64,000 bases of DNA from Lycium barbarum. Lineage: Eukaryota; Streptophyta; Magnoliopsida; Solanales; Solanaceae. The stretch lies in assembly GCF_019175385.1 (NCBI RefSeq), contig NC_083346.1, positions 56,139,821-56,203,820 on the forward strand, given 5' to 3'. Positions 26,236 through 64,000 of this stretch are shown one piece after another. The notes under the pieces are model-generated. The model was not told the origin of the DNA. It ran no database searches and saw nothing but the letters and a program-made list of their open reading frames with translations. Each line of letters opens with the position of its first letter. Within the stretch, counting starts at the first letter, position 1. Made by a program: the position numbers and the translations under genes.

Positions 26236-26289
26236 CCAGATACTAATTAAAACTCCGTTCATCCTCGAACAGACAAAGATGAGAAATCT

Positions 26290-30225: not shown

Positions 30226-30229
30226 AAAG

Positions 30230-30241
30230 TGGTATCAGAGC
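30230..30241 (+). other. Primer-binding site of E1
   Basis: TGGTATCAGAGC is a perfect complement to the 3' end of plant initiator Met tRNA, 4 bases after the LTR end. It begins the conserved leader (30230-30395) also found at 53750-53915 and 61874-62040. Confidence 0.9.
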
Positions 30242-30435
30242 AGTTAGTCCTAGGGATTGTCTACGAGCCGTGTCCGGTAGAGTCCTATTTATGGGTGTGA
30301 AGCGCGCCACATTCATAAGCAGGAGGTTGCAGGACATTTTAGGAATAATTGACCTTCTTTCCTATCTTAGATCGTGCGATAGAGCCATGTTATCAGGTTC
30401 TCCCCCTTTCCTAATCGTGTGTTATGATTTCAGCG

Positions 30436-31899: not shown

Positions 31900-32975
31900 C
31901 TACAGACACAGTTAGTTGCCGCCAGGCACAGCGGCAGAGCACAGGTTCTGGTGACAGGGCGACTAGTACTCGAGCCCGGGATTTTATGTGTTTAAACCTT
32001 CTAGAGTTTTTCAGGTCAAAGCCGAATGAAGACCTACAAGGTTTTATTGATGAGATGTTGAGAACACTGAAAATTATTCATGCCTCCGATACTTAATCTG
32101 TGGAGTTAGCATCTTATAGACTCCGGGATGTGGCGGTTGTTTGGTATAATAATTGGATATCCTCAAGAAAGGAAAATGCACCTTCCCCAGTTTGGCAAGA
32201 ATTTGTGGATGCTTTACTTCGTCACTATTTGCCACCCGAGGTCCGTCAAGCTAGAGCGGATAGATTCTTAGATTTGAAGCAGGGGAATATGAGTGCCCGG
32301 GAGTATAGCCTTCACTTTAATTCATTGGCTAGATATGCTCCGACTATGGTGGCCAATATGGGAGATAGAATGCATAGGTTTGTGAGTGGCTTAGGGCCAT
32401 ATTTTTTTAAAGAATTCTTGGAAGCTTCATTGCAAAAGGGGATGAACATTTCCCGTATTCGGGCCCATGCCAAAAATTTAGAAGAGCAGCAACATCCGCA
32501 AAGGGGTGAGCGCGATATTGATAGAGGGCAGAGTAAGATGGCCAGATCTATGGGTGCCGGTAGCGACTATAGAGGGGGATCGAGGCAGTTACATTCTAGA
32601 TCCTCAGGCTAGTCGGCAACTAGTGCACCTCCCCAGTTTGTAGGCAAGAGATTTGAGCACTCCATTTATTCAGGACAGGGTTAGAGCTCGAGAGCTTCAG
32701 GTTCCCAGTTTGGAGGCGATTATAGTCAGAGGAGGTCACCGGTCCCATGATGTAGTCAGTGCATAAAGTTACATTCGGGCCCATGTCATCAAGGCTCCGA
32801 TGCTTGCTATGTTTATGGACAGACTGGGCACGTGATGTGTGATTGTCCCTTGAGGTACGGTAGAGGTGGGGTTCAGCCCACAGGATCAGCAGCTGGTTCT
32901 TCTTCGTCTGTGCGCCCAGTAGAGTAGAGGCAGAGGAGGAGCGTCCAGTTCTGGTGGTACCCTGCCCCGTATCTA
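31900..32975 (+). pseudogene. E2 gypsy gag (decayed)
   Basis: The start is fused to integrase text, and the gag-like reading begins at a diverged AAQTQRQST-equivalent. The best stretch is 32100-32612: YRLRDVAVVWYNNW, VWQEFVDALLRHYLPPEVRQ, REYSLHFNSLARYAP and RFVSGLGPYF, the retrotransposon gag capsid core. It is preceded by an in-frame TAA (about 32096) and followed by a TAG. The zinc knuckle near 32805 reads CYVYGQTGHVMCDC, so the second Cys of CCHC has become Tyr. Compare the intact knuckle of the element at 63217. Confidence 0.8.
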
Positions 32976-33015
32976 TGCTTTAGCCGGACAACAAGATCTT
33001 GAGTCCTCCCCGGAT

Positions 33016-34291
33016 GTGGTTACAGGTATATTATCTATATTCTCTCATGAGGTTTATGCATTGATATATCCGGGTTCCACGTTGTCTTATATTACACCTT
33101 GTATTGCTGGTCGTATTGGGGTGAAACCTGAGCCAATTAAGCCTTTTGAGGTATCTACTCCGGTTTGTGATCCCGCAATAGCTAAACAAGTGTACAAAGA
33201 TTGTATGATTGTGGTATGTGATCGTCGGACTAAAGTAGATCTAGTTGATCTGGAAATGTTAGATTTTTATGTGATTGTGGGTATGGATTGGTTAGCTTCA
33301 CATTATGCCAATGTCGATTACCGAATGAAAGTGGTTCGATTCCAATTTCCGGGAGAACCCGTGCTTGAATGGAAAGGTAATACAGCGTCTCCCAGACGTA
33401 GGTTTATTTCATACCTTAAGGCAAGGAAGATGATAGCTAAAGGCTATATTTATCACTTAGTCCGAGTTCATGACACCGAAGCAAAGCCACCGACTTTTCA
33501 ATCCGTCTCGGTAGTGAATGAATTTCCGGATGTATTTCCAGATGAACTTCCTGGCCTTCCTCCGGAAAGAGAAATTGATTTCACCAATGATGTATTACCG
33601 GATACTAAACCAATCTCTATTCCACCCAACCGAATGGCTCCTGCAGAATTGAAAGAGCTAAAGGCACAACTGAAAGATTTGCTTGAGAAGGGATTTATTA
33701 GGCCCAGTTCATCACCACGGGGAGCGCCTGTCCTATTTGTGAAAAAGAAAGATGGTTCCTTACAGATGTGCATCGCCTATCGACAGCTGAACAAGGTGAC
33801 GATAACGAATAAATATCCTCTCCCAAGAATCGATGATTAGTTTGATCAATTACAGGGCGCCAAGTGGTTTTCCAAAATAGATCTGAGGTCAGGTTATCAT
33901 CAAGTGAGAGTTAGAGAAGAAGATATTTCTAAAGCAGCTTTCAGAACGAGATATGACCACTATGAATTTCGGGTAATGTCATTTGGGTTGACTAATGCTC
34001 CGGTGATATTTGTGAATTTGATGAATAATGTATTCAGGCCTCTCTTAGATCTGTTCGTGATTGTGTTCATTGATGATATTCTCGTATACTCTCGGACAGA
34101 ATCTGAGCATGCAGACCATTTACGCATTGTCCTTGGGATTCTTCGTACTCGTGAATTGTATGCAAAATTTTCAAAATGCGAGTTTTGGCTAAATTCTGTG
34201 ACATTTCTAGGGCATGTTATTTCAGCTGATGGCATTCAAGTCGATACTCAGAAAATCGAAGCTGTGAAGACTTGGCCAAGGCCCACAATAC
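33016..34291 (+). pseudogene. E2 gypsy protease and reverse transcriptase, 5' part
   Basis: One frame covers the retropepsin and the RT fingers and palm. The protease active site, normally D-S/T-G, reads [11 protein letters not shown] here (about 33058), so the catalytic Asp is lost. The RT part has [32 protein letters not shown], the block [13 protein letters not shown], and the catalytic FIDDILVYS (about 34066-34092; xxDD box intact). One in-frame TAG (33838-33840) breaks the frame. At 34291 the gene is cut by a solo LTR flanked by AATAC; the RT/RNase H continues at 36675 in the same frame. Confidence 0.88.
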
Positions 34292-39880: not shown

Positions 39881-40789
39881 ACAGTAAATCGTGTTTTTAA
39901 ACATTTAGTACAAATTCTTCTTTCATAAAACTCCAATACAGTTTCCAAGGAGCACCTAGGGAAAAATTCTAAAGCTAGGGCCAGAATATTCTTAAGAGGT
40001 AAGTCTCAACCCTTCCTCTCTTCACTACACATTCATCTCTATGATTATCATCATTCTAATAGGTCTACAATGGTAAATTGAGACTAGTAACCCTAAAACT
40101 TAATAGACCTTTAATAGTTGGTGGGTTATGCATATTATTATGTGATTATCATCTAAAGGCTTGTGTTATCACTTTCTAAACAAGAATTGAACCGTTAGAA
40201 ACATGAACTAAGTGAATTGAGACTTAGGGTTTCATAAAGATTGTAGCTTGACCATAGAAATTGCTTGTAAGAGATAACTTGAATGAATAACCTTATGATT
40301 TGATAGTTGATGGTTGCTAAGGCCAATGCCAGGATGATTTATACGTAGAAAGCCTTCACCCATTAGAAAGGGGTAAAGTGGAAGGGTGTTCATTGAATTG
40401 ATATTGTTAACTAGAGTGATTGTGACTTATTTAGCATATTAATTGCTAGACTTTGAGCATTCCGAGGCATTACTAAAGGGAAAGGCTATCGCGGAGTGAT
40501 TCACATTGTTCCACCACTGCAGTTGAGGTACATTACGATTTACTTGAGTTAGACTTTGATTAGTTGATTGTATGTGTTATGAGATTGATAAGAGAAAGCA
40601 TGTCTAGTCTTCGGACATAATGTGTGGCTGAAATTCCTATATGCTATTGATTGAGTGATAATGTGGGATAAATGCCATTACTCAATGTGTGGTGATCTAT
40701 AATTTGATGACAATTGTGGTGAGAAGTTAATATGATCTTCTTGATGAAAATGATATACTACTTGATAATCGCTCATTAAGAGTGATGTG

Positions 40790-40794
<5 letters not shown>

Positions 40795-40883
<89 letters not shown>
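40795..40883. repeat. (TA)n(TG)n compound microsatellite
   Basis: About 17 TA units followed by about 26 TG units inside the left LTR of N2. The corresponding segment is deleted from the right LTR. Open frames across it are meaningless. Confidence 0.95.
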
Positions 40884-40884
<1 letters not shown>

Positions 40885-41660
40885 TATGGCATATTTGAAA
40901 GGAGGTGAGGATGTGAGCTAGATTTCGGGCACATTTGACAGGGGGTAAGGATGTGGCCTAAGTTAAAGGCTGGTGATCCAAGGTATGATTTTGGAGTGAG
41001 GTTAAATGGACACCATGGGTCACCTGCAGGTCATAACTATTGGGTGAAGACACCAATTAACATGTATGTACACGAGTGATCAGTGACTAAGTAAGTGAGA
41101 ATGTTGTGGTGAGGTTTATTCCATTGTTTGTTTCCGTTGAATTGATTTATAATATCATTAGTGGACTTGTTTAATTAATATCATTGATCGACTTATTGTT
41201 GGCTATCTGATTATGTGTTGTTGACTGGTCTGTCTATTGTATTGATTTTATGATTCATGCATAATACGAATCTTAGTCGGCCTATGATATCTACCGGTAC
41301 ATATTGTTTGTACTGATACTACCTTGCTGCATTCTTTTGAGTGCACATTGTGATCTAGAGACTGCTACTTGTCCTCATATTTAACTTGAGGCCATTTGTT
41401 AACAGATTGAGGGTGAGCTTCTATCCATGCCAGGCTGCCCAAAGATCTTCTTTTATCCAATGTCTATTTTCATTCCAGACATTGATGTTTATTTATTTCA
41501 GACAGTATGAACTCCTTAGACATGTTTTGGATTAGAGTCCTTGTACGGTGACTTTCAGATTTTGGGGTTGTAATAGTTAGGACTTCTGCATTTACATTAT
41601 TGTTTTATGGCATGACTACTTTTGATTAATCTCACTTTTAATTTATTGTGAGCTAAATGA

Positions 41661-43440
41661 ATTGACTATCGTCGGTTTGTGAAGGGGTTTGCCTCTATTG
41701 CCTCTCATTTGACCCGTTTGACTCAGAAAGAGGTACCGTTTCAGCGGTCCGATGAGTGTGAGGAGAGCTTTCAAAAGCTCAAGCTTGATGACACCTCCTA
41801 TTCTAGCATTGCCCATGGAAGGCAACAATTTTGTTGTTTATTGTATTGCTTCACACTCTAGTTTGGGTGCTATTTTGATGCAGGAAAAGAAGGTGATTGA
41901 TTACTCTTCTAGACAGTTGAAAGTGCATGAGAAGAACTATCCTACTCATGACTTAGAGTTGGCAGCAGTGGTGTTTGTGCTGAAAATCTAGAGGTACTAC
42001 TTGTATGGTGTCTGATGTGAGGTGTACACCAATCATCACAGCTTGCAGCATATGTTCACTCAGAGGGATCTGAACTTTAGGCAGCGGAGATGGATGGAGT
42101 TGCTGAAGTATTATGACATCACCATTATATATCGTCCTAGTAAGGCGAATGTGGTGGTCGATGAGTTGAGTAGCAAGTGAGCTAGTATGGGAAGTCTGGC
42201 TCGTTTGATCTCTTCGGAGCGTCCGTTAGCTAAAGAGGTTCATACTCTGGCTAATAGTTTTATGACGCTGGATATGTCTAGCAAGGGCAGAGAGTTGGCT
42301 TGTGTTGAGGCTAGATCATCATTTCTGGAACAGATTATGGCTAAATAGTTTGAGGATGCTAAGTTATGTAAAATCCATGACAAGGTGTTGCGTAGTAAGG
42401 CCAAAGAGGACGTGATAGATGAAGAGGGGGTGTTGCCACGTGTGGGTGATTTGATCAAGACTATTCTAGCAGAGCCTCACAGTTTGAGGTATTCCATTCA
42501 TGCTACTGCTACTAGGATGTATCGAGATCTGTGACAACATTACCGGTGGGCCAGGATGAAGCGTGACATAATGGAGTCTGCATTTGGAATTGGGTACTAG
42601 GTTAGACCTTAGCATAGCTTTTCACCTTCAGACTGACGGGCAGTCCAAGAGGACTATTCAGACTCTTGAGGATATGCTTCGGGCTTATGTGATATATTTT
42701 GTTGGTCACTGGGATCAGTTCTTACCATTGGCAGAGTTCGCATATAACAATAGCTACCGCTCGAACATCGACATGGCTCCATTTGAAGCTTTGTATGGGA
42801 GGAGGTGTAGGTCTCTTATTGGTTGGTTCGATGCATTTGAGGTGAGCCATTGGAGCACAGATCTTCTGAGAGAGTCATTAGAGAAGGTGAAGGTGATTCA
42901 AGCTAAGCTTTTGGCAGCACAGAGTAGGAAAAAGGAGTATGCGGACCGAAATGTCCGAGATCTTTAGTTTATGAAAGGAGAACGAGTTATGTTGAAAATT
43001 TCACCCATGAAAGGTGTGACAAGGTTTGGGAAGAGGGGCAAGGTTAGTCCGAGATTTATTGGGCCATTTGAGATTCTCAAGCATGTGAGGGAGGTAGCTT
43101 CTGAGTTGGCTTTACCTTCGGGCTTATCAGATGTTCATCCGGTATTTCAAGTTTCGATATCGAAGAAGTATCATGGCGATGGTTCATACATAATCTGTTG
43201 GGATTTGTCTTTACTAGATGAGAACTTGACTTATGAGGAAGAGCCTATTGCTATCTTAGATAGAGAAGTTCGCAAGTTGAGGTCGAAGGAAATAGCCTTC
43301 GTGAAAGTTCAGTGGAAGAACCGCCCAGTTTGAAAGCTACATGGGAAACATAATCGGATATAGATAGCAAGTATCCTTAGATTTTCGCCGAGACAGGTAC
43401 CTTTTCCCTAGAGTTCTCATCCTTGTCCGTTCGGGGATGA
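41661..43440 (+). pseudogene. N2 gypsy RNase H, integrase remnant and chromodomain end
   Basis: It begins YRRFVKGF (about 41668) and continues with RNase H text ([32 protein letters not shown], about 41835-41985). The linker IIYRPSKANVVVDELS is at 42120-42175. Integrase is internally deleted: the text passes from the zinc-finger region (RWARMKRDIMES, about 42545-42580) straight to ELGTRLDLS-like text and [15 protein letters not shown] (about 42640). The core with two catalytic Asp is therefore missing. The C-terminal half (42584-43333: MAPFEALYGRRCRS, VHPVFQVSISK, EEEPIAILDREV...VKVQWKNRPV) keeps long open frames and a chromodomain-like end. Confidence 0.85.
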
Positions 43441-45015
43441 ACGATGTTTTAATTGGTATCTGATGTAACGACCCTCCTGGTCCTTATGGAAAGTATAGGA
43501 TCACCCTACCAAATAGAACCCTTCTAAAGGTAGAACGAGCTAATAGAAACTCAAATGTAGAAGTCTAAGAACTGGAAACTTGGCTTCTTGTGATTATTAT
43601 TTAGTTGTGTTGAGACCATTTGGGGTGTGACGTATTAAATTAGACCTCCGTTGGGGATTTCGAGGCCACAGGTGAGTCCGTATGGTGTTTTTACATTAAC
43701 GTGCATGTTTGTTTGTGTTTGTGGGGCCTCGGACGAAGTGTTATGTGGCAGAGTGGAAAACTGGTGAAATTAGCGAGCCACTGGTTCAGTGGCATCGCTG
43801 CGGCGGACGGTGTACCGCTGTAGCGGCGCGATCATCGCCGTCGAGGACATAAAGGAAAAGAGGGCATCCACTATGGTGGACACCGGACCGCTATAGTGCT
43901 TGCGCTATGGCAGGTCCATGCTCGGCACAACGGAAGTGGACGAAAGTTGGTTTCCACTAGCGCCTGTAATAGCGAGACTTCTGCAGCAACTAAATGACCG
44001 CCGCAGCGGTCAACAGATATAGTAAATCGTGTTTTTAAACACTTAGTCCGAATTCTTTATTCATAAAACCCCAACACAGTTTCCAAGAAGCACCTAGGGC
44101 GAAATTCTAAGGCTAGGGCAAGAATATGTTTTAGAAGTAAGTCTCAACCCTTCCTCCACGCATTCATCTCTAAGATTATCATCATTCTAATGGGTCTACA
44201 ATGGTAAATTAAGACTAGCAACCCTAAAACATAATAGAACTTTAATAGTTGGTGGGTTATGAATATTATTATGTGATTATCATCTAAAGGCTTGTGTTAT
44301 CACTTTCTAAACAAGAATTGAACCGTTAGAAACATGAACTAAGTGAATTGAGACTTAGGGTTTCATAAAGATTGTAGCTTGACCATAGAAATTGCTTGTA
44401 AGAGATAACTTGAATGAATAACCTTATGATTTGATAGTTGATGGCTGCTAAGGCCAATGCCAGGATGATTTATACGTAGAAAGCCTTCACCCATTAGAAA
44501 GGGGTAAAGTGGAAGGGTGTTCATTGAATTGATATTGTTAACTAGAGTGATTGTGACTTATTTGGCATATTAATTGCTAGACTTTGAGCATTCCGAGACA
44601 TTACTAAAGGGAAAGGCTATCGCGGAGTGATTCGCATTGTTCCAGCACTGCAGTTGAGGTACATTACGATTCTATTCGTGCCAGGCCCCCCGAAGATCTT
44701 CCTTTATCTAATGTCTATTTCCATTCCAGATATTGATCTTTATTTATTTCAGACAGTACGAATTCCTTATACATGTTTTGGATTAGAGTCCTTGTACAGG
44801 ACTTTCGAATTTTTGAGTTGTAATAGTTAGGACTTCCGCATTTACATTATTGTTTTATGGCATGACTCCTTTTGATTAATCTAGCGTTTAATTTATTATG
44901 AATTGAATGAATTGACTAAGTAAAAATGGACTTTGAATGAGTAGATGGTTAAGCGTATTGGTTCGCCCACTAGGAGTTAGGGTGGTTGCCAGTCATGGTG
45001 GGTTGTGTCGTGACA

Positions 45016-48083: not shown

Positions 48084-49530
48084 TGTCATGACCCGTCTCG
48101 AGGGCCGCGACGAGCACCCGGTGCTAGCCCACCTGGGTACCCCCTTAGCTTACTCTTACTCTTACATCTAGGTGAGCCACATAGTTAATCATACATTTCT
48201 ATTGAACAATCATACTAGTCCCATCGGACGACAATGCCTTTATATCATAATTGGCATCTATGCCACATCAACGTACATGAGCCGACAAGGCTATCAGAAT
48301 GATATACAAAATATAGGCCGACAAGGTCAAACATATCTAACCACATACACATGTCTACGAGCCTCTAAGAAGAGTATAACATATCACATAAGCGGGACAG
48401 GACCCCGCTATGCCCATAATTATGTAAACAAGAGAATAAGTACCCAAAAGCTATTGCTCCGAATGAAATGGAGCTCTGCTATGTAGTCTCTGAGAATACA
48501 GCTATGGATCGAGCCTGTCTCCCTGTGCACCTGCGGGCATGATGCAGCGTCCACAAACAAAAGGACGTCAGTACGAAGAATGTACTGAGTATGTAAAGCA
48601 TGATCAATATCAATATAGAAGCATAAGTAGCAACATAAGAAATATCATAGAATGAGAGATGGCATTATCATCGTCATATGCACTTACTTGTCTTTCATAG
48701 GAACTTTCCATTGCTAATACGTATTTGTGTACATACATCATTATCCGTATTCCATAATAGTACCCGTACCATATTTGTGCTCATATTCGTATACATGCTC
48801 TTATTCACATTCATATACATAGTCGTATCATATTCATATTCACGTCATATACATAATCATATCATATACATAGCATTTACATAGCATACCCGACCACGTA
48901 GGATCAGTGTTTCATACATACTTGGCCAACCAAGGCTCAAGGTTACTCATACCTGGCCCTACCAAGGCTTCAGGGTTACATCCACCTGGCCCTACCAAGG
49001 CGTCAGGGTTGTCTGTACCATCTGCAGAGGTGTGTGCGCGTCTCGTAATCGTATACATACTTATCTACATATCATACCCGACCTCATAAGCTCGGAGTTC
49101 CATAATAGTCATACATATACTAGCTCATAAACATCATTTCTATTAACATCATTATCATCATCGTCATCATTATCGTCATTCGTCACATTTGCATTAATGG
49201 GCCTACTCGTCATTCGAGGAATTTAGTAATCGTAGCATATCGAGGATCATAAGCTTAGTAGCTTTGAAGATAGAAGCATTTGGATAACATCATAAGCTTG
49301 TAAAAGATTTAGATGATTGGCCAAAGAACCATGCCTTATGAAAGAAGGGTTAGCCTTACATACCTTTCCGTTCAACTATTTACCACTTGCGCTTTCTCCT
49401 CCAATGCTAGCGTTTCTACCTTCATTAAAGTCATACTATCGTTAGAATCGACAGCTAGCACACATGGCTAAAGCTAGAGAAAATCGAACAGCGTCTCCTT
49501 TATTTATACGACATTCCTCCATAGCGTATA
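48084..49530 (-). mobile_element. Antisense gypsy LTR (family of the 49531 LTR), truncated
   Basis: It starts tgtcatgacccgtctcgagg (48084; reversed end GGGTCATGACA), with ggtacccccttagc, cacctgcgggcatgatgcag and acgtcagtacgaagaatgta, all reversed 3'-half LTR motifs. A direct repeat acctggccctaccaaggc occurs at 48951 and 48983. The distal part (49370-49500) is the inverse of 50700-50850 in the sense LTR that starts at 49531. It breaks at 49531, where the sense LTR begins, so the two form a head-to-head pair. Confidence 0.7.
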
Positions 49531-51084
49531 TGTCACACCTCGGAAAATCTCCCGTTGGTACGCAAGTGACTGAACTAGTGATGGGTGCGAGTGTATGATG
49601 TTTCACAAGTAAGAAATGACGTTTGATGGCCCTAAGCGAGATTTCGAAGGCATCCGATGTAAGGCGAGAAAGTTGGCTAAGATAAGGCGAGGTGTGAGAT
49701 GAGCAATGTATGTAAATGGATGTGAATGATTAGAATGTGAAGTCTAGAGATGTGAAAAGTTACAGGTTTGCAAACTGGCCAGTTGGTCGTAAAGTGAAAT
49801 ATGGACCGTAAAATGGTATACGGTCCGTAAACTGGCCAGTCGTATTTTGGCATTCAAAACTTCAACTTTCTGCCAATTGATCAAATGGTAAAATACGACC
49901 TGGAATACGGACCGTAAAGTGATTTACGGCCCGTAAACCATGGTCGTAAATCACCATGTTGCTGCCTGAGTTTCTGGTTCTGTTATGGTTAAAAACAACC
50001 ACGAAGGACGGTCCGTAAACTGCAATACTGACCGTAAACCACATTTACGACCACTGTGCACTTCAAAATCAGATTTTCAAGTCATTAAATAAGGGGACCA
50101 AGGCTTATTTCATTTCACTTCTATATCACACCCCTTCTCTCTAAACCATCTCTCTACATTTATTATACAAGGTTTCAAGGATTATAAGTCATCAACAACA
50201 CAAAACAAGTGAGTCAAGAGTAAGCAAGCCCATTAAATATCATCCAAGTCAAGGAATCCAAATAGAGAAAAACTAGGGTTTTTGCTCAAGTGGAGTATTA
50301 TCAACAAAGGCTTGTTCCTACAACATTTAAGGTAAGATTCATGGTACTTATATATTGTTTAAGGTATTTGAGAGTTGAAATGCTTGGCCATTAGAAGAGT
50401 ATAACAAAATGGGTTATGAATGATGAATAGTGACATTTTGAGACATAGTTTGAGTTGAATCATGATTGTTGTTGTGTTGTGACATGAATGTGTTATAAAT
50501 GACGTTAAGACCATGAAATAGACGTGTAAATGAACGGACGAAGTTGGGTGTTGTGACCATGAACATGGACAAATGAAAGTAAATTGAGAAACCTAGATAA
50601 TGTGGATGATTAATGGCTATTGTTATGATACTAAGAATGTATTGTTGACCCTTGGGAGGTGAATTACGATATGGACAAATGTTGCATAAATAAAGGAGAT
50701 GTTGTCCGATTTTCTCTAGCTTTAGTCATGTGTGTTAGTTATCGATTCTAATGATAGTATGACCTTAATAAAGGTAGAAACGTGAGCATCGGAGGAGTAC
50801 GTGCAAGTGTAGAATAGTTCGACGAAAAGGTATGTAAGGCTAACCCTTCTTTCATAAGGCATGGTTCTTTGGCCAAATTTTTAAATCCTCTATACGAGTA
50901 TGTTGTCTTCAAATGATTGATCTTCCGAGCTCGTAAACTCATAATCCTTGATATGTACTACGATTGTACTACGCTCCTCATGTGACGAGTAAGCCTATAA
51001 GATAGACGTAACGATAATAATGATGATAGAAATGTTAATGATAATAATAATGATGCTAATGGTGCCTATGGGCTATTATACTTA
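49531..51084 (+). mobile_element. 5' LTR of gypsy element E3, first part
   Basis: It begins TGTCACACCTCGG and shows the ACGGTCCGTAA palindrome cluster (49785-50055), as in the solo LTR at 34292. It is interrupted at 51085 by the non-coding element; the LTR continues at 60840-61869, and ACTTA flanks the break. It ends at a primer-binding site followed by the gag-pol of E3. Confidence 0.85.
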
Positions 51085-53746
51085 TGTTATACCCCGCATT
51101 TTCAGAGCATGAGCGTGACACGCGCTTCCTCAAAATTGACAATCATGTTGTTGCCACATAATTTAAAATCACGTTGATAATGTTGTATTCCGTACTTTTG
51201 TACGTCGGATTATTCATAAGCTGAGGTGGAGCCCACGCGTCGAGTTTTTTTTGAGGACACATGACAAGTTATATGAAGCACATATGTGAAGTTGAACACA
51301 ACTCAAGAAGGACCCTTGAGCCGAATCAAAGTGGAAGTCCCCCAAACAAATATTTTTAAGTAACGTTTTCGGGTGATCTGAATTTGAAGGGAAAAAACGG
51401 TATTATAAGTTTGGAATTTGGAAGCATACCAAGAAATAGAAGTTGTAGATAATTGAATTACCTTTCCAACCATAGGTCGTGGGTCCACAGATGATGTCGG
51501 AATATGGAGATATCGACGTTTTAAGGCAGAAAGGTCAGTGGGCTAGGCTCAATCCGAGCCCAACCGGGTTAGGCCCATTACCCATGTCTTTATAAGTGCA
51601 AATTTCGGCCTTCCTCCTCATTTTAAGACCAGGAACGCCCAGAAAATTCTGGGGAGAGAGAGAAAAAGAGTCTTGGAGAAGAAAAACCAATTTTGATCGA
51701 AATCTGGGCCTCGAATCCCAAAGCCCATGAAGGGAAAAGTGTTGTATGCTGCGTTGTCTTCAATTTGAGCTGAAAATCAACCAAGGAGAAGAGTGATAAC
51801 GTGGTGGCTGCATGCTTAAGGTATGAAAAAGGTTCCTCTTCATTGTTAACGAGTTTATTTAGAGTTTCGACGGATTAGCACGGAGAGAATAGCCTGATAA
51901 ATTCGTTTGTTGGGGTTGTGAATTATGGAATGAAACTTGAAGAAAATTTTGGATGGTAATAAATGTATTTAACTTGTAAAATGTGGAGGATGTTGTTATT
52001 AATGTCATTGATATTAATTTCAGCTTCATTACGGAAATAAAATTAATAAATAGTTATATCGCAAATTTGGTTGGTTGAGAAATTTAGAAAACAGTTTGCG
52101 GGCTGTTTTATGGCATACGTCGGTATTGGAAATGATGTTAATACTATTGGTATTGTTGTTGAAGTTGTTGGTTGTTGAATTGGAATTTCGGGCTAGGCAT
52201 ATAAACAGGGGAAATGCTGCCCGAATTTCGGCAGAATTTAAAGGGGTTTTAATTAAAGTTTCGAGACGAACGTACAACGATGATCCTAATGATATTATGA
52301 ATGATTCCATATGTAGAGTACGAGGCTACGAATAATTCTTACGCGAGTTGCAAGACGGGAAGTAAGTTGAAAGTCGAGAATCATCTTCCAGGTATGTAAG
52401 GCTTACCCTTTCCTTCTTTTGGCATGATCCTTGTGAAACAAATAGACAAAGTATATGTATGATTTCAAAGAAACTCCTATTCTTAGAGCCACTAGGATGG
52501 CTAATGTTCTTGACTTCCGAAAACTGTTTTGTTATGTCTTGATACATGTGTGTGGTTCCAAAAGTTCTATTTTGATTTGATCCATAGCGATATTCGAATG
52601 GTACTTGAAATGACTATTGCTTTGATTTTCCAAAGATAGCTTCTGAAACGTTCGTAGAGGTTTCTGTACTAAAATGTTCATAACTTTCTTATACTAACCC
52701 GGATTGACCCGAAACGTGTTTGTGATCTTTCAAGTGTCGTTTTGTGTACTCATCCATCGAGTCTTAAAAATTGATTTATGTGCATATAGTTTCTCACTAC
52801 TCTGCTCGTGCATGCCTCAATGCATCTTTCACTGAGTCCCGGGCCAGGATATGTTATCGTGCGTATTCCACTGCATTGTTCACCGAGTCCCTCATTAGAG
52901 GGCCGGGTACGGTATATGTATATGATGATACGATTATGACACCGAGTCCCATGATGGGCCGAGTACGGTATATGTATGTGATGACATGATTATGGCACCG
53001 AGTCCCAAGATGGGCCGGGTACGGTATGACTTCATTCACTGAGTCCCTCAATAGAGGGCCGGGTACGGTATATATGTATTTATATATATGCATGCATGAT
53101 GATATGATAATGTGATGACATGATTTTATCCACCGAGTCCCATAACGGGCCGGGTACGGTATATGATAATGATATGCATAATTTATGTTTTAAAGGCAAG
53201 AGTTCTGGTATTCTGAACATTGTACTTGTTTTTGTACTCCTTATATCAGTTATGATCCTTTTTACTGTATATCATGCCTTACATGCTCAGTACATATTCC
53301 GTACTGACCCCCTTTCTCCGGGGGTTGCGTTTCATGCCGCGCAGGTACACCCAGATGAGTAGAAGCCATTATAGAAGATGTTCCAGCGGAATTGGCAAGC
53401 TCCATTTGCTCCTGGAGTGTTGCCGAGTCAGATTATTCATGCTATGGTATCTTGGTCGATGTTAGAGACTTTGCAGACAGAGTTGTGGGTATAGAATGTC
53501 AGTCTTGTAAGCGGCTCCACCAGCCGATGTGTCATTATGTATTATGTTACAGAATCTTTATGATTACAGATTTACTTGCCTTGAGAACGATGGAAAAATG
53601 ATTCTGCAAGCCCTTATTATGTATTTTATTCTTATTTGATTTAAAGAGTCCAAAGCGGTTATGTGTGTAGTAAGAGTCAGCGAGTTCGCTCGGCCCTAGG
53701 TAAGGGTCGGGTGCCCATCACACCCTAGTAAGATTAGGGTGTGACA
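51085..53746 (+). repeat. Left LTR of the LARD-like element
   Basis: 2,662 bp, TG...CA. It contains the conserved LTR tail motifs (cagtacatattccgtactgac, ccgcgcaggtacacc) and a tandem hairpin array at 52829-53165. It is the same length as the right LTR. Confidence 0.95.
52829..53165. repeat. Tandem hairpin array in the left LARD LTR
   Basis: Six spaced units of caccgagtccc...gggccgggtacggtatatg, at about 52829, 52881, 52940, 52997, 53038 and 53131. Each holds a short foldback (for example ccctcattagaggg or cccatgatggg). They are separated by tatgatgatatga-like AT text. The right LTR has the same array at 59917-60253 with a few substitutions. Confidence 0.88.
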
Positions 53747-53749
53747 AAG

Positions 53750-53761
53750 TGGTATCAGAGT
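53750..53761 (+). other. Primer-binding site of the LARD-like element
   Basis: TGGTATCAGAGT matches the initiator Met tRNA complement (TGGTATCAGAGC) except for the last base, three bases after the LTR end. The following leader to about 53915 matches those of E1 and E3. Confidence 0.88.
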
Positions 53762-56700
53762 AGGTCGTCCTAGGGGTTGTCTGCAAAGTCGTGTCCAGTA
53801 GAGTCCTGTTTTGGGTGTGAAGCCGGCCACATTTATAAACAGGAGGCTGCAGGGCATCTAGAGATTGTTGACCTTCTTTTTGTCTTAGATCGTGCGATAG
53901 AGCCAAGTCATAGGAAATGAGATTCCTGGCACTAACCCTTGATTTTAGCAAATGCACAGTATCGACGGGAGAAGATGAATGAAGATATGGAAAGTCACAG
54001 GGGTAAGTTCTGATATTTTCATTCTTTTACCTGAAATTGGGAGGTCTGGGTGGCTGAAATGTGCCGTATACATATGTATGCCCTAAGTGGCATTTTTGGT
54101 ATTTGCTGCGTGCAGATTCTGAATAGTAAGAATTGTAAAGGAGATTCTGCTAGAATTGTTCAAAATCAGGTCATTTAGTTAGGTACGCCTAACAGAAGGA
54201 AGCGTGGAAAGGGAATATTGTAAATAGACAATAAGTGAGGTGCGTTGTTCTAGAGGAGTTATGGATTTGGCATGGCATGAAGAATAATTGCAAGAAAGAC
54301 GATTAGCAGCCGAAGGATTAAGATGGACAACATTCGAGGTTTAGTAGGAGCAAGGTCTGTTGGAGGATTTAGAGAAAGTCGGCAATCAGTTTTGCTGTAG
54401 ATTATTATATAAGGATGGTGAGTGGGAATCCGAACAGGCTGATACCCGAGTATTCATAAGTAACGGAGACGAAGGCGTGTTCACTACCATCGGGAATCTA
54501 GGAATCTAGGACGAAAGGTAGTCATACACATAAGTGAAAGGTGAATATTGAGGATTGAAAAGGGTAAAATAGTAATTGTAAAGGGAAGGACGTGTTACGA
54601 GAATGTCTTGGAATTTGTAAGACTTCGACTTGCTCCAGATCATGTAATGAAGGTCATGCAATGAGGTGGGTGCGATTATACCTGCACTAATGCACCGGAT
54701 TTCATCGGAGTTTTAAGGTTAAGCGTGCTGGGGTGAGAGAAATCATAGGATGGGTGACCCCCTGGGAAGTGCACTAAAAGTTCTGCAAAAGCAGACATAA
54801 AAGAAAAAATGAGAAGCTAGAGTAGCCTAAGGGAAATTAGAGTATACGGAATGGCTGGAAACCTTAAGAGGTCGCATAGAACGAGGTAGACTAGACCGGT
54901 GAAGAGAAAGAAGGTGCACCACGACTCTAGAACTAGGATGAGGTTGAATAGCATTTGGAAATATTTTGTAAGCGAGGTGGTAGTAAATATATATATATGT
55001 ATGCATATGGTATCCTATTTGTATCGATGGGCATGTGTATCCCAGCAACCGGTGTTACAGTATGGAAGGCATCAATAAAGTAAGGGTACCGAAGTTCAAG
55101 TGACAACAAAAATAAACGGAACAAGTGTTACAAGGTAAGCTGATGCTATTTTCACTACAGGTTAAGATTGGAAAGTTCTAATACAACGATATTTGGAAAA
55201 GAAAGAGAGTGAGTAAGTAGAAGGCAAGGGGATCAAAATGTCGGGAAAAGTGAAAAGCAAGAAACATGATTGAGCAAAGCCTCCAAAAGAAACGACGGGC
55301 AAAGCACGAGACTATTTGGGTAAAAATTCGAAGGAAGGCATATGAAAAGGATAGAGTATGGTAATATGGAACAAAAGAGAAATATGAAGTAAGAGAAGGA
55401 ATGATTAAGCCTTGCGTCGATGTTAGGAGATTTCGGCCCTTGAAAGGTATATAAAGGAATAAATGTGCGGCCATATTAATGTGGTTGCCTCAGACATGGA
55501 GGAGCTTTCCTGAAAGAATGACTTAAGAATAGGACGGATTTGCGGGTCTAAAGGAATATTTCACGAACTTTAGAGCCGATGTTACAAATAACAAGAGAAG
55601 AAAGGTACTCGAGGAGGAATAGACCCAAGGAAGGTTAAGGATGAAAGTAGGAAAGATATACTAATGGGTTGGTCGAAGAAAGAGGAGAGCATTTAGGAGT
55701 GGAGTAACTGGAAATCTCTAACCATGGGAGTAAGAAGGATACTTTAACTAAATGACGGTAGGAGACCGATTACTCATCAAGGAAAGAACGAGGATGGTGA
55801 GTTGACACAATTGATTAGAAAATTAGTGATATGAGGCAAGAACTTCTGTAAAGACCGAGAGGTTCGATTATAAAGGAAATAGAATGAAATGTAAGAAACG
55901 TGCGTGGAGGAGAAGACAAACTTGGCCGTGGCATCAAAAAGATAAATAAAGGATTGATTGGGATGGATAACTACAAGGGAAATGCGACGCGTCTATTAGT
56001 AAAACGAAGTAACAGCGTGACGGGGACAGGGGCATAGAATACTAAGGTTTGTAATGAATGTGAATAACTTTGTAAGACAACTTATTTGGTAAGTGTAATA
56101 GGGTCAATTAGAAACAGTTACCGGTTAAGTAAGCTTACTCCACGAGCTTTATTCTGTTTTATAAGCAGTGTTACGAATGAGATCAAGAAATGGTACTCTA
56201 TAGAGTTGATTATGATTAGGATATAATGAGAATGTAGCAAGAACTACAATACAAAGTAAGTAAAGTACAGCGAGGAAACGACTTAAGAGGTTTTGCAATG
56301 TCAGGACTGATAGCAAGCATGATGAAAGAGGAAGACAACTAAAAAAATAAATGAAATTGGACTAAATTCAGGTATATTACGAAACAGACATGGGAAAGGA
56401 GGCATGACAAGATAATAAAGGTTTAGAAGAATCAAGGAAATAAGTTTTGTCAAGCAATACGTTGTGTCCCGGGCTATGATTCGAATCGCTCGTACCGGAG
56501 AAATTTTGTTGCAAATAAATAAGTAGCAGGCATACTCCAAAAAGGTAACGGAGGAAGTGAGAAACGCCTACGAGTAACCAAGGATAAGTATCAGGACAGA
56601 CGGGATTACTAAAGAAAAATCGCGACGTTGGAAGGAATGAGAGTTTTAAAAGAGGAATATTTATAGGAATCTCAATGCTTGTTAAAAGGAAAAAAGGCAA

Positions 56701-58158
56701 TATGCCTATGGATAGCATGACAACAGTACTACCTGAGATTTGGAAAACACCTCCTGCATCATGAAATCATAGGTCACCGTTTATATATCAAATCGTGGGA
56801 GTATATGTCATAGGACCACATAAATGATCGTCCTGACGAAATGACTAGTAAAATAGTGTGGAAACGACATTAAATATTTGAAGAAGAATGGAATCTCGTT
56901 AAATCTCTATTAGCCTCCTACTTATGAGTTATTTTGTAATGACATTCAGATCAGAGGAGAAGAGGTTGGAGGAAAGATTCATACAAGGATTTGAAAATAT
57001 TTTGAATAGTAGAATAGTATGTTGTAAGTATACTCTTGTGTCCTGAGGGATAACAATGATGATCAGAAACTATTATATACAAGAGTATAAGAAATGGTGC
57101 TGAGGATCATTGTATGGGTCCAATTGAGTCTTATTTGACTATAAATCCCTTAGCTACGGTATTTTTGACGCATTGGATGAGTAACCTGTGGTAAGGTAGT
57201 TAATGAGAATGATCCGTCATTAGCAAGGAAGTGCTATTGCAAGCCATCTGGGCGCTACCATCGGCGGAATTATTATGACATTGTAAGGAATTAAGAAGTA
57301 CAACAAAAGTATTAAAAAGAAGATGAAATGATATGAATATAAAGTATCACTGGAGAAGCAATATGATGGATCTTATTGGAAAAGGGACAAATGGAGGATA
57401 CAGACAAAAGCAAGAATGAAAAGATCTGAATTCGCCGCATGATTCAAGAATCTTGGTTATTTTTCGACAAACTTCTGAATTCACCCCTAAGTTATTAGCC
57501 AAAATAAGGATTAGAAACTTTCAGAATAAACTGAAGGAAATAAATTATTAAAGAAGATGTTTGAAATGTTTTCGACATAAGTGCAAAAATTATCGTTAGC
57601 TAGCCAGGTGCCGGGAGTCTAATTGAAGGGAAGAGAAATTAAGCGGGACATTTCAGTGTTAAACTAGTTAAGCAGGGGATGCTAGATATGACTAGTCTTG
57701 AATTTATCTTTAAGGAAGTAAGAATAGGAATAAGTCAACTCCAAGGAGATAAAGGCTTGGGATATCTGTGAAACATAAGAAAGATACGTGGAGATTGAAG
57801 AGAACAAGAATTTATGAACAAAAAGAAAATGATATCGAATTAGATAAAAGTATGTGGTAAGCACGGCATGAAAGGGGCATACAAGAATGTAAACAACGAA
57901 GGCTGAAGAGACGATGAAAGCGATAAAGTGTAAAGAGTTAGTGGACAAACGAATAATAAGAAAAAGGGATGACCTTGAGTTCAGGCGTAAACTTTGGCCA
58001 CAAAGGAAGAAGAATAGATTGCATAATTCAGATAAGTTCAGTTTTAACGAGCAAGTAAGACTGCAAGTAAGTAAAGTAGATACAGACAAATACAGGTAAA
58101 AACATCGATCTATACCTCGGAGCGAACTCTACCTCAACATTCGAGGATGAATGTTTTT
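53762..58158. other. LARD internal domain, no coding domain recognised
   Basis: Apart from the shared leader (to 53915) and the 5S-like segment (54668-54770), the 4.4 kb is purine-rich on the plus strand, with many aag/gaa stretches. It shows no recognisable retroelement protein on either strand. The longest open frame (minus, 57682-58089) is low-complexity hydrophobic reading of the purine-rich strand's complement. The last 100 bases (cgagcgaactctacctc, attcgaggatgaatgttttt) match the end-of-internal text typical of these gypsy elements (compare gttcgaggatgaac next to the G1 LTR). Confidence 0.75.
54668..54770 (+). other. 5S rRNA-like sequence inside the LARD internal domain
   Basis: The text gggtgcgattatacctgcac, then taatgcaccggat, ttaagcgtgctggggtgaga and ataggatgggtgaccccctg followed by ggaagt follows plant 5S rRNA over its length in the correct order, with scattered substitutions. 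The segments corresponding to the internal Pol III promoter (A-box near aagcgtgct; IE/C-box within ggatgggtgacc..ctgggaag) are the best preserved. It reads in the same direction as the element. The 3' end (after gggaagt) diverges from 5S, so it is a derived copy, not a functional 5S gene. Confidence 0.88.
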
Positions 58159-58172
58159 AAAGGGGGGGAGGA
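58159..58172 (+). other. Polypurine tract of the LARD-like element
   Basis: aaagggggggaggat, a purine run directly before the right LTR, is the usual start point for plus-strand DNA synthesis. Confidence 0.85.
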
Positions 58173-60834
58173 TGTTATACCCCGCATTTTCAGAGCATGA
58201 GCGTGACACGCGCTTCCTCAAAATTGACAATCATGTTGTTGCCACATAATTTAAACTCACGTTGATAATGTTGTATTCCGTACTTTTGTACGTCGAATTA
58301 TTCATAAGCTGAGGTGGTGCCCACGCGTCGAGTTTTTTTTTAGGACACATGACAAGTTATATGAAGCACATATGTGAAGTTGAACACAACTCAAGAAGGA
58401 CCCTTGAGCCGAATCAAAGTGGAAGTCCTCCAAACAAATATTTTTAAGTAACGTTTTCGGGTGATCTGAATTCGAGGGGAAAAAACGGTATTATCAGTTT
58501 GGAATTTTGAAGCATACCAAGAAATAGAAGTTGTATATAATTGAATTACCTTTTCAACCATAGGTCGTGGGTCCACAGATGATGTCGGAATACGGAGATA
58601 TCGACGTTTTAAGGCAGAAAGGTCAGTGGGCTAGGCTCAATCCGAGCCCAACCGGGTTAGGCCCATTACCCATGTCTTTATAAGTGCAAATTTCGACCTT
58701 CCTCCTCATTTTCAGACCAGGAACGCCCAGAAAATTCTGGGGAGAGAGAGAAAAAGAGTCTTGGAGAAGAAAAACCAATTTTGATCGAAATCTGAGCCTC
58801 GAATCCCAAAGCCCATGAAGGGAAAAGTGTTGTATGTTGCGTTGTCTTCAATTTGAGCCAAAAATCAACCAAGGAGAAGAGTGATAACGTGGTGGTTGCA
58901 TGCTTAAGGTATGAAAAAGGTTCCTCTTCATTGTTAACGAGTTTATTTAGAGTTTCGACGGATTAGCACGGAGAGAATAGCCTGATAAATTCGTTTGTTG
59001 GGGTTGTGAATTATGGAATGAAACTTGAAGAAAATTTTGGATGGTAATAAATGTATTTAACTTGTAAAATGTGGAGGATGTTGTTATTAATGTCATTGGT
59101 ATTAATTTCAGCTTCTTTACGAAAATAAAATTATTAAATAGTTATATCGCAAATTTGGTTGGTTGAGAAATTTAGAAAATAGTGCGCGGGCTGTTTTATG
59201 GCATACGTCGGTATTGGAAATGATGTTAATACTATTGGTATTGTTGATGATGTTGTTGGTTGTTGAATTGAAATTTCGGGCTAGGCATATAAACAGGGGA
59301 AATGCTGCCCGAATTTCGGCAGAATTTAAAGGGGTTTTAATTAAAGTTTCGAGACGAACGTACGACGATGATCCTAATGATATTATAAATGATTCCATAT
59401 GTAGAGTACGAGGCTACAAATAATTCTTACGCGAGTTGCAAGACGGGAAGTAAGTTGAAAGTCGAGAATCATCTTCCAGGTATGTAAGGCTTACCCTTTC
59501 CTTCTTTTGGCATGATCCTTGTGAAACAAATAGACAAAGTATATGTATGATTTCAAAGAAACTCCTATTCTTAGAGCCACTAGGATGGCTAATGTTCTTG
59601 ACTTCCGAAAACTGTTTTGTTATGTCTTGATACATGTGTGTGGTTCTAAAAGTTCTATTTTGATTTGATCCATAGCGATATTCGAATGGTACTTGAAATG
59701 ACTATTGCTTTGATTTTCCAAAGATAACTTCTGAAACGTTCGTAGAGGTTTCTGTACTAAAATGTTCATAACTTTCTTATACTAACCCGGATTGACCCGA
59801 AACGTGTTTGTGATCTTTCAAGTGTCGTTTTGTGTACTCATCCATCGAGTCTTAAAAATTGATTTATGTGCATATAGTTTCTCACTACTCTGCTCGTGCA
59901 TGCCTCAATGCATCTTTCACTGAGTCCCGGGCCAGGATATGTTATCGTGCGTATTCCACTGCATTGTTCACCGAGTCCCTCATTAGAGGGCCGGGTACGG
60001 TATATGTATATGATGATACGATTATGGCATCGAGTCCCATGATGGGCCGGGTACGGTATATGTATGTGATGACATGATTATGGCACCGAGTCCCAAGATG
60101 GGCCGGGTACGGTATGACTTCATTCACCAAGTCCCTCACTAGAGGGCCGGGTACAGTATATATGTATTTATATATATGCATGCATGATGATATGGTAATG
60201 TGATGACATAATTTTATCCACCGAGTCCTATAACGGGCCGGGTACGGTATATGATAATGATATGCATAATTTATGTTTTAAAGGCAAGAGTTCTGGTATT
60301 CTGAACATTGTACTTGTTTCTGTACTCCTTATATCAGTTATGATCCTCTTTACTGTATATCATGCCTTACATGCTCAGTACATATTCCGTACTGACCCCC
60401 TTTCTCCGGGGGCTGCGTTTCATGCCGCGCAGGTACACCCAGATGAGTAGAAGCCATTATAGAAGATGTTCTAGCGAAATTGGCAAGCCCCATTTGCTCC
60501 TGGAGTGTTGCCGATTCAGAGTATTCATGCTATGGTATCTTGGTCGATGTTAGAGACTTTGCAGACAGAGTCGTGGGTATAGAATGTCAGTCTTGTAAGC
60601 GGCTCCACCAGCCGATGTGTCATTATGTATTATGTTACAAAATCTTTATGATTACAGATTTACTTGCATTGAGAACGATGGAAAAATGATTCTGCAAGCC
60701 CTTATTATGTATTATATTCTTATTTGATTTAAAGAGTCCAAAGCAATTTTGTGTGTAGTAAGAGTCAGCGGGTTCGCTCGGCCCTAGGTAAGGGTCGGGT
60801 GCCCATCACACCCTGGTAAGATTAGGGTGTGACA
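58173..60834 (+). repeat. Right LTR of the LARD-like element
   Basis: 2,662 bp, starting TGTTATACCCCGC and ending AGGGTGTGACA. It is collinear with the left LTR without net length change, with about 60 substitutions counted by eye. The hairpin array is at 59917-60253. Confidence 0.95.
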
Positions 60835-60839
60835 ACTTA

Positions 60840-61057
60840 TGTGTGCCTATGAAGGGCTATAATGAAACCCCGAGCTTATAACGCCGGGTAGAATATATGT
60901 ATATGTATGTATACGATTACGTAATGCGCGCACACATCTGCAGATGGTACGGATAACCCTGAAGCCTTGGTAGGGCCAGGTAGATATAACATTGAGCCTT
61001 GGTTGGCCAAGTATGTATGAAACATCGAGCCTCTATGGTCGGGTACGCTATGTATGC

Positions 61058-61131
<74 letters not shown>

Positions 61132-61869
61132 GCTATGTATATGACATCATTAAGAGTACGAATATGTTATGAATATGAGATGTAAATGATCATGAGGGTA
61201 ACCAAGTACGGATATGGGTATATGTATGCGGATACGCAGTAGAAACGGAATGTCTCTATGGAAAGTAAGTAAGTGCCATGATGATGATATTATTGTCTCC
61301 TCCCCTATGCAACTTCACACGTTATTCATTATGCTTCTATATCGATGTTGATCATGCTTTACATACTCAGTACATTCTTCGTACTGACGTCCTTTTGTTT
61401 GTGGACGCTGCGTCATGCCCGCAGGTGCACAGGGAGACAGACTTGATCCATAGCTGCTTTATCAGATATTTCATAGCAGAGCTCCATTTCATTCAGAGTC
61501 GTAGCTTTTGGGTACTTATTCTTTTGTGTATATAATTATGGGCATAGCGGGGTCCTGTCCCGCTTAGGTGATATGTTATACTCTTCTTAGAGGCTCACAG
61601 TCACGTGTATATGGGTAGACATGTCCGGCCTTGTCGGCCTATATTTTGTATATCTTTTGGTAGCCTTGCCGGCTTATGTACAATTGATGTGGCATAGATG
61701 TCAATGATGATTTAAAGATGTTTTCTTCCAGTGGGACTAATGCGATTGATGCATAGAAATGTATGTTAATTTATGTGGTTCACCTAGACGTAAGTATAAA
61801 GGAAGTCAAGGGGTGCCCGGGTGGGCTAGTACCAGGCGCTCGTCGCGGCCCTCTAGATGGGTCGTGAAA
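60840..61869 (+). mobile_element. 5' LTR of gypsy element E3, second part
   Basis: It continues the LTR begun at 49531 after the LARD insertion. It contains a (TA)n microsatellite (about 61062-61125), the conserved cattcttcgtactgacgtcc and gtcatgcccgcaggtgcac text, and the end gggtcgtgaaa (usual gtcgtgaca with one change). Confidence 0.85.
61062..61125. repeat. (TA)n microsatellite
   Basis: About 31 TA units within the E3 LTR. Confidence 0.95.
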
Positions 61870-61873
61870 AAAG

Positions 61874-61885
61874 TTGTATCAGAGC
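61874..61885 (+). other. Primer-binding site of E3
   Basis: TTGTATCAGAGC has one mismatch to TGGTATCAGAGC and lies four bases after the LTR end. It opens the conserved leader, which runs to about 62040. Confidence 0.85.
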
Positions 61886-62079
61886 TGTTCAGTCCTAGGG
61901 TGTGTCTACGAGCCGTGTCTGGTAGAATCTTGGTTATGGGTGTGTTGCGCGCCACACTTATAAACAAGAAGCTGCGGACATTTTAGGAATAAACGACCTT
62001 CTTTCTTCATAAGAATCGTGCGATAGAGATATGATGTAAGACATTCTTGTTCCTAAATCGTGTGTTGTGTATTTCAGAG

Positions 62080-64000
62080 ATGCCTAAAAAGAGAAAGGAT
62101 ACAGCAGCCCAAAAGGGCAAGACGGTGACAGAAAAGCGGGCTGAAAGAGCATTGCCACCGGTACTAGAGGCAGGTGAGTCCCAGAGTGCGGCTCAATCTC
62201 AGTCCTCCCAAATGGTGCCTATTACTGAGGAGCGTGAGAGAGCCTCAGCCCCAGCCCCAGCACCTCCAGCTCCTCCACCGGATGCTTCCGACCAAGATGT
62301 AAAAGAGGCCATTAATTTGTTGACTCAATTGGTTGCGGCCCAGACACAGAGGCAAAGTTCAGGGCATGGTGATAGGGCTGTTAGTGCAAGGGCCCGTGAT
62401 TTCATTACTTTGAACCCGCCAGAATTCTTTGGGTCAAAGCCAGAGGAGGATCCTCAAGATTTCATTGATGGTATGCTAAGGACGCTTCGGTTGATACATG
62501 CTTCGGACACCGAGTCGGTGGAGCTAGAGTCATATAGATTAAGAGATGTCTCGATCTAGTGGTATACGGTATGGATGGTTTCACTGGGGGCCACTACACC
62601 TCCCCCGGTATGGCAAGAGTTTGTTGATGCTTTTCTCCGTCATTACATGCCTCCAGAAGTTCGGCGGGCTAGGGCTGATAAATTTTTGAACTTGAGGCAA
62701 GGTAGCATGAGTGCCCTAGAGTATAGCCTCCACTTTAACTCCTTGGCTAGGTATGCTCCGGCCATGGTAGCGGACATGGGTGATCGAGTGCACCTATTTG
62801 TGAAATGACTAGGGCCACATTTGATGGATCGATGCTTGACTGCGTCCGTTCAGGACGGCATGGATATTGCACGCATTCAGGCTCATGCTCAGAACTTAGA
62901 AGAAAGCCTACAACAGCGGAGGAATGAGCGTGAGAAAGATCGGGGGTATAGTAAGAGGGCTTGATCTTCGAGTCCGACAAGCGAGTTTAGAGGTGGGCAC
63001 AGGCAGCAGTTTCCCAAGCATTCGGGCTATTCTATGACCAGTGGATCTCCACGGTTTTCAGGCTAGAGATTTGATAGATCCGCTCATTCGGGGCCGAGTC
63101 AGAGTTTTTCAGGGTCTCAGTTCAGAGATGATTCGGGTCAGGCAAGGCCACCCACACCACGATGTTCCTAGTGTGGGAAGCTGCATTGGGGTCAATGCCG
63201 ATCAGGTTCATATGTTTGCTACTCATGTGGCCAACCAGGCCATATCATGCGTGATTGCCCCTCAATACATAGTAGAGGTAGGGCCCAGCCATCAGGGTCG
63301 ATAGAGGGATCTTCAGCATCTGTACGCCCTACGGGGCCAGGTTCACATGCGCCAGTCGGCCATGGTAGAGGCAGAGGGAGAACTCCCAATTCTAGCGGTC
63401 CTCAGCACCGTATCTATGCTTTGGCTGGACGCCAAGATCTTGAGTCTTCTCCTGATGTGGTCACAGGTATATTATCGGTATTCTCTCATGATGTATATGC
63501 TTTAATTGATTCGGGCTCCACATTATCATATGTTACACCATATATTGCGGGTCGATTTATAGTCGAGCCGGAGTCGATCAAACCTTTTGAGGTGTCTACA
63601 CCCGTGGGTGAATCGGTAATAGCTAGCCGAGTATATAGAGATTGTGTAGTTATGATTTGTGATTATCGTACCATGATTGATTTGCATGAGCCAGAAATGG
63701 TATATTTTGATGTCATTATGGGCATGGATTGGTTGGCTTCTTGTTATGCCAATGTTGATTGCCGAATGAAAATGGTTCGTTTCCAATTTCCGGGAGAACC
63801 AGTCCTAGAATGGAAAGGGAATACGGCGTCACCAAAAGGTAGGTTTATTTCCTACCTAAAAGCAAGGAAAATGATCACAAAAGGTTGTATTTATCATCTA
63901 GTGCGAGTTCAAGATATAGAAGCTGACTCGCCGACTCTTCAGTCAGTTCCCGTAGTGAACGAATTTCCGAATGTGTTCCCGGAAGAGCTTCCAGGCTTTC
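62080..64000 (+). pseudogene. E3 gypsy gag and protease, running off the window
   Basis: The ATG at 62080 opens MPKKRKDTAAQKGKTV; a Pro/Ala/Gln-rich spacer precedes the gag capsid core (FFGSKPEEDPQDFIDGMLRT, YRLRDVSI, VWQEFVDAFLRHYMPPEVR, YSLHFNSLARYAP). A CCHC zinc knuckle is intact (CYSCGQPGHIMRDC, 63217-63258). Protease follows with an intact DSG (ALIDSGSTLSY, about 63500-63530) and the GMDWLASCYANVDC block. The start of the RT linker (FPEELPGF) lies at the right edge. In-frame stops at 62557 (TAG), 62806 (TGA) and near 62960 and 63065 break it. The remaining text is close to consensus, so decay is recent. The RT and beyond lie outside the window. Confidence 0.88.

Follow-up and report, generated by a model that had tools for sequence, protein, structure and literature searches.

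The closest described counterparts of the locus reported here are the Cassandra elements, non-coding LTR retrotransposons of 563-968 bp that carry the 5S rRNA sequence in their LTRs (PMC10853983). Their published features include a Met-type primer binding site (PBS), a polypurine tract (PPT) and a 5S sequence with an A-box, an intermediate element (IE) and a C-box (PMC10853983, PMC7215508), and they provide the precedent that LTR elements can use the 5S promoter (PMC10853983, PMC12786077). Ajax and Helenus (TRIMp3) likewise hold a small-RNA-derived, potentially Pol III-transcribed segment in the LTRs of non-autonomous elements, which are about 0.3-1.3 kb long; Ajax, reported from two nemerteans, follows the same plan as Cassandra, whereas the segment in Helenus derives from a tRNA and not from 5S rRNA (PMC10886601). 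A separate group of non-coding elements, the large retrotransposon derivatives (LARDs), is defined in PMC7215508, and none of the LARD titles and abstract openings that were listed mentions a 5S segment. In a literature represented mostly by titles and abstracts, we likewise noticed no description of a large LTR element that holds 5S sequence internally, between its LTRs. All the 5S-bearing LTR elements that we found described are miniature and carry the 5S sequence in their LTRs, and a case of 9.75 kb would extend such capture to large elements.

Here, we describe a large LTR element, located in a 64-kb stretch of DNA (hereafter, the window), whose internal domain contains a single segment derived from 5S rRNA. 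The element resembles Cassandra in having a PPT, a PBS that is presumably of the Met type and no coding regions. It also retains the counterpart of the ~70-bp Cassandra 5S core with its A-box, IE and C-box, as 28/31 box bases are conserved in a match to 5S nt 1-103. On the other hand, the 5S sequence lies in the internal domain instead of the LTRs, and the dimensions are quite different, with 9,750 bp for the element and 2,662 bp for each LTR, as compared to 563-968 bp and about 200-400 bp in Cassandra. We therefore reject membership in Cassandra, as two of its defining features, the 5S sequence in the LTRs and the miniature size, are lacking. The 2,662-bp LTRs, the 4,426-bp internal domain without coding capacity and the complete transposition signals (LTR ends, PBS, PPT and target-site duplication) instead fit the structural description of a LARD, as judged from one copy. 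The association between a 5S segment and an LTR element is real, and it is unusual.

Results

Our cmscan search of the 64-kb window yielded a sole Rfam family match at the gathering thresholds, that of the 5S rRNA family RF00001 at 54668-54786 on the + strand (model positions 1-120, E 9.6e-5), with a score of 39.8 bits that lies above the gathering score of 38. With permissive filters and E<=1, six Rfam matches of any family were obtained in the 64 kb, and one of these, at 54668, was 5S. The segment at 54668-54770 (+) aligns with plant 5S nt 1-103 in the sense orientation and without gaps, with 84/103 identical positions (blastn E 3.75e-24, 101 bits), while blastn at E<=10 gives just one further match of 5S rRNA in the window, with a length of 11 nt (E 2.9). 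The reference plant 5S sequence used for this alignment and for the substitution counts was not taken from a database entry. An independent check was provided by four universal plant 5S probes, as printed in PMC11901598. The best + strand placements of probes 1-3 in the window are at 54668, 54701 and 54733, which reproduce the 0/33/65 spacing of 5S rRNA with 26/30, 20/29 and 19/24 matching positions, and thereby support the presence of 5S nt 1-89 independently of this reference. Probe 4 (5S nt 94-119) found its best placement away from the segment, with 18/26 matches at 17662. The reference agrees with the four printed probes at 28/30, 28/29, 24/24 and 26/26 positions. It departs from probe 2 once, at nt 49, a position at which the window carries the base of the probe, and thus one of the 19 differences counted in the segment may be no true difference.

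The identity to 5S rRNA starts at nt 1 and ends after nt 103, and the last 16 nt of the RNA are absent. In the tail of the Rfam match (54771-54786, +), identity to 5S nt 104-119 is not significant, and a search for these nucleotides just 3' of the segment did not find them (P 0.82). No relatives of the segment were detected in bacterial, archaeal, plasmid, phage or other viral DNA, a result that is uninformative with regard to copies in plants. A protein-pattern search gave 5 matches in viral contigs and 24 in non-plant genome contigs, with none confirmed, and two antisense frames that run across the 5S borders had no candidate in a protein database composed of predicted frames only.

The element that contains the segment spans 51085-60834. 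Its 5' LTR (51085-53746, +) and 3' LTR (58173-60834, +), delimited by self-alignment and by MAFFT alignment to each other, both begin with TGTTATACCCCG and finish with TAGGGTGTGACA. The two LTRs differ by 61 substitutions and no gaps (97.7% identity), and the element is flanked by the 5-bp target-site duplication ACTTA, at 51080-51084 on the left and 60835-60839 on the right. The PBS TGGTATCAGAGT (53750-53761, +), which we take to be of the initiator-Met-tRNA type, has one mismatch to TGGTATCAGAGC; as such matches with one mismatch are common by chance, the argument for this site is its position, 3 nt past the 5' LTR. The PPT AAAGGGGGGGAGGA (58159-58172, +) directly precedes the 3' LTR. The purine-rich internal domain (53747-58172, +), in which the 5S segment begins 922 nt past the end of the 5' LTR, is non-coding according to the frame and ORF listing: it has no + strand stop-to-stop frame of at least 80 codons, and a single + strand ORF of at least 60 aa, with a length of 61 aa, is listed within 54000-58172. 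When the internal domain was compared with the protein frames of the window (tblastn, E<=0.01), the only similarity beyond its own frames was in the leader, and a decayed protein-coding domain around the segment is thus unsupported, as far as the window's own frames can serve for comparison.

These results bear out the structural claims of a preliminary description of this DNA. It had recognized plant 5S sequence, in order and in the orientation of the element, and had made this claim depend on a significant alignment over about 100 nt; the alignment is significant over 103 nt. It had further described the LTR element as large and non-coding, with the 5S sequence about 0.9 kb into its internal domain, as we also find. 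The precedent that it named, Cassandra, is the right comparison, from which the present element differs in the place of the 5S sequence and in size.

Among the other features of the element, the + strand of the internal domain consists of 54-68% purine in 300-bp steps, and its stop-to-stop frames of at least 80 codons are all on the opposite strand. In each LTR, a 56-bp unit is repeated in tandem, in 2.3 copies (52900-53027 and 59988-60115).

The internal domain opens with a leader (53747-53911, +) that also occurs in Ty3-type elements of the window, with 83% identity to 30215-30393 and 75% identity to 61870-62028. The window also contains gag and retroviral-protease domains, in frames at 32097-32609 and 32923-33837, downstream of the leader-like sequence at 30215-30393. 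The leader is thus shared with a gag- and protease-bearing Ty3-type stretch, which makes a coding Ty3-type relative a plausible helper for the element. Self-comparison revealed that 61851-64000 matches, in collinear order, the three stretches 30207-30669, 30875-31003 and 31905-33559. The element itself seems to sit inside an LTR that belongs to a coding Ty3 element.

A source name is given for 13 of the best 20 of the 7,991 protein matches of the frame at 32923-33837, and 11/13 are from Solanaceae (10 Nicotiana and 1 Solanum tuberosum), the remaining 2 being from Corynebacterium. The host most likely belongs to the Solanaceae. Plant contamination of the assemblies of Corynebacterium sp. MC-13 and MC-02 is the probable source of their proteins, which closely resemble retroelement proteins of the Solanaceae.

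In the surroundings of the element, the right flank at 60848-61867 matches 48086-49117, on the left of the element, in inverted orientation with 76% identity, and reaches a primer-site-like sequence at 61874; beyond this point, frames at 63172-63999 contain a zinc knuckle and a protease domain. The stretches at 24000-28100 and 39900-45000 are related retroelement sequences in mutually inverted orientation, and the former includes SH3_Tf2-1 and chromo domains at 26302-26769 (-). An (AT)n microsatellite at 61041-61135 produced sub-threshold matches to microRNA families, which are most likely artefacts.

The segment is more diverged than the LTRs, since 19/103 of its sites differ from 5S rRNA, while 2.3% of the sites differ in the LTR pair. 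At substitution rates of 1.3e-8 to 7e-9 for LTR dating, the LTR divergence (K2P 0.0233) corresponds to about 0.9-1.7 My, with the reservation that gene conversion between the LTRs could make the copy look too young and would weaken the argument from age. For a normal 5S sequence that entered at the time of integration or later, about 1 change per 103 nt would be expected, as compared to the 19 seen. The probability of at least 19 changes in 103 nt since insertion is 2e-17 with half of the LTR K and 4e-12 with the full K, and on these grounds we reject the insertion of a fresh, undiverged 5S sequence after integration. Therefore, the segment either predates the insertion of this copy as a part of the element, or had already decayed on arrival. 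Residence in the element lineage long before the insertion of the copy would be the simpler of the two options; this is an argument from divergence, drawn from one copy.

The shares of transitions are alike in the segment (13/19) and the LTRs (43/61), as expected of neutral drift. The substitutions are nevertheless clustered, with 8/19 falling within 11 nt at 54707-54717, which correspond to 5S positions 40-50 (P 0.0017, with nt 49 being debatable). This cluster is not predicted by plain drift, and we found no explanation for it.

Discussion

We propose, with a probability of about 0.58, that the segment is a relic of 5S rRNA, which was acquired through RNA and has drifted as a passenger between the LTRs of a non-autonomous, LARD-like Ty3-type retrotransposon of a Solanaceae plant. 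Acquisition through RNA is suggested by the borders of the match, which starts exactly where the RNA starts and leaves out its last 16 bases. In the first step, the 5S RNA, rather than a whole 5S gene repeat, would have been copied into the element lineage. This may have occurred by template switching of the reverse transcriptase onto 5S rRNA within the virus-like particle, in which minus-strand synthesis would jump onto the 5S rRNA, copy it from nt 103 back to nt 1 and run off. For LTR elements of plants, a switch of template between RNAs packaged together has been proposed (PMC1950507), and its extension to 5S rRNA is our own suggestion. Another route would be LINE-type retroposition, which would likewise provide the full 5' end, and with which the AATGAG repeats and the A-rich stretch described below would fit. 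The segment would then have been multiplied as a passenger in the LTR-driven genomic RNA while drifting, so that other copies of the element should also carry it, and the present copy would have inserted later, with the segment already diverged. Mobilisation may have been provided in trans by a coding Ty3 element.

Given the option that the segment had decayed before its arrival, we also considered whether a 5S retroposon that had diverged beforehand, either SINE3-like or a pseudogene copied by a LINE, later inserted into this one copy of the element alone. We regard this as unlikely. Such retroposons share with the segment a start at 5S nt 1, and possibly an A-rich end and a short flanking repeat: AATGAG at 54660-54665 (+), 2 nt before the segment, may be the left copy of a target duplication, and the + strand sequence at 54797-54813 consists of an A-rich stretch followed by AATGAG at 54808-54813, the possible right copy, identified post hoc. 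A repeat of at least 6 nt with an A-rich tail occurs at 0.26% of 3,401 overlapping placements in the internal domain; however, the tail criterion was also post hoc, and without it a repeat of at least 6 nt is found at 16% of the placements. Moreover, the 26-nt stretch between 5S nt 103 and the A-rich part is left without explanation, the donor would need a prior divergence of ~18%, and the window contains no second 5S match. In contrast to the SINE3-like and LINE-copied cases, the segment lies within an LTR element, and no 5S-derived SINE was identified. To our knowledge, there is no diverged 5S-derived retroposon family in the Solanaceae.

A further possibility would be that the segment acts as a Pol III promoter, or as a binding module for 5S-associated proteins (TFIIIA, L5), and is under selection in the RNA of the element, with Cassandra as the precedent for such use of the 5S promoter. 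We consider this quite unlikely, even though the promoter boxes are recognizable. On the 5S sequence, we take the A-box, IE and C-box to be nt 50-64, 67-72 and 80-89, respectively, and in the alignment to 5S rRNA their equivalents retain 13/15 bases (54717-54731, +), 5/6 bases (54734-54739, +) and 10/10 bases (AGGATGGGTG, 54747-54756, +). The C-box motif is that printed in PMC10853983. The preliminary description had considered the promoter region to be the best preserved part, which is true in number, as 28/31 box bases are identical, as compared to 56/72 elsewhere in nt 1-103, but not in significance (Fisher P 0.17). The 3 box substitutions compare with 4.36 expected in a base-matched permutation (P 0.30), and with 5.7 expected in a simulation without base matching, a test of low power (P 0.11). 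They would also fit a substitution rate that is two to four times lower in the boxes than elsewhere, while a ten-fold reduction is hardly compatible with them (P 0.05). With this low power, the counts agree with a moderate constraint on the boxes as well as with none.

The fold does not lend further weight to a functional module. In helices II-V, 18/21 pairs are still possible, as compared to 17.4 expected (P 0.47), and helix I keeps 5/9 pairs. The segment strand folds with a z of +1.27, with 180/200 shuffles being equally or more stable, and its minimum-energy fold is not 5S-like. Selection on the structure is thus unsupported, as the fold is no better than those of the shuffles and the pairs are kept at the level of chance.

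The arrangement of the transcription signals also argues against a functional module. A TTTT at 54711-54714 (+), a possible Pol III stop, lies within the segment and 5' of the A-box, and the next one is at 54964, while the terminating T-run of a functional Pol III unit is expected only downstream of its boxes, although four Ts may not suffice to stop plant Pol III. Plant 5S genes have upstream motifs, TATA at -28, GC at -12 and C at -1, and all three are absent upstream of the segment. In addition, an RNA made by Pol III from 54668 onwards would contain neither the 5' LTR nor the PBS. It would thus be unusable as the template in ordinary LTR transposition, and could not aid the element as a 5S promoter within an LTR can. 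The proposal that the segment gives the element its own Pol III transcript, or tethers its RNA to 5S-binding proteins, therefore gained no positive evidence, considering the early TTTT, the missing upstream motifs and the fold unlike that of 5S rRNA. We regard a Pol III role as unproven and rather unlikely, and a present function of the segment as possible, albeit unsupported.

A broader form of the functional explanation, a Solanaceae family of large non-coding LTR elements that share an internal 5S module with conserved boxes, as a Pol III promoter or a protein handle, appears improbable. If it were true, the module as a handle could serve the stability, export or packaging of the RNA, and the use of 5S sequences by LTR elements would have arisen independently of Cassandra.

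It is similarly improbable that the segment entered as DNA, by way of a 5S array or a Cassandra LTR that recombined in the vicinity of an ancestral element. DNA-level origins have been proposed for Cassandra in PMC10853983. The segment has changes beside its boxes, at positions 73-78, together with an intact C-box, which recalls the pattern that this paper describes for Cassandra. However, entry as DNA does not predict a left match border at 5S nt 1, and because of this border it appears less favoured than acquisition through RNA. The absence of the upstream motifs of plant 5S genes also speaks against it. Finally, chance similarity to 5S rRNA is rejected by the E value of 4e-24, the lack of any other 5S match in the window and the collinear placements of the printed probes.

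A 5S segment inside an element of 9.75 kb would offer a comparison case for how Cassandra-like elements gained their 5S promoter. Even a mere passenger of this kind has practical consequences, since repeat families that carry it risk annotation as 5S genes or as Cassandra. In potato, 9/688 unknown repeat consensuses were reported to match non-coding RNAs, with 5S rRNA among them (PMC4524691).
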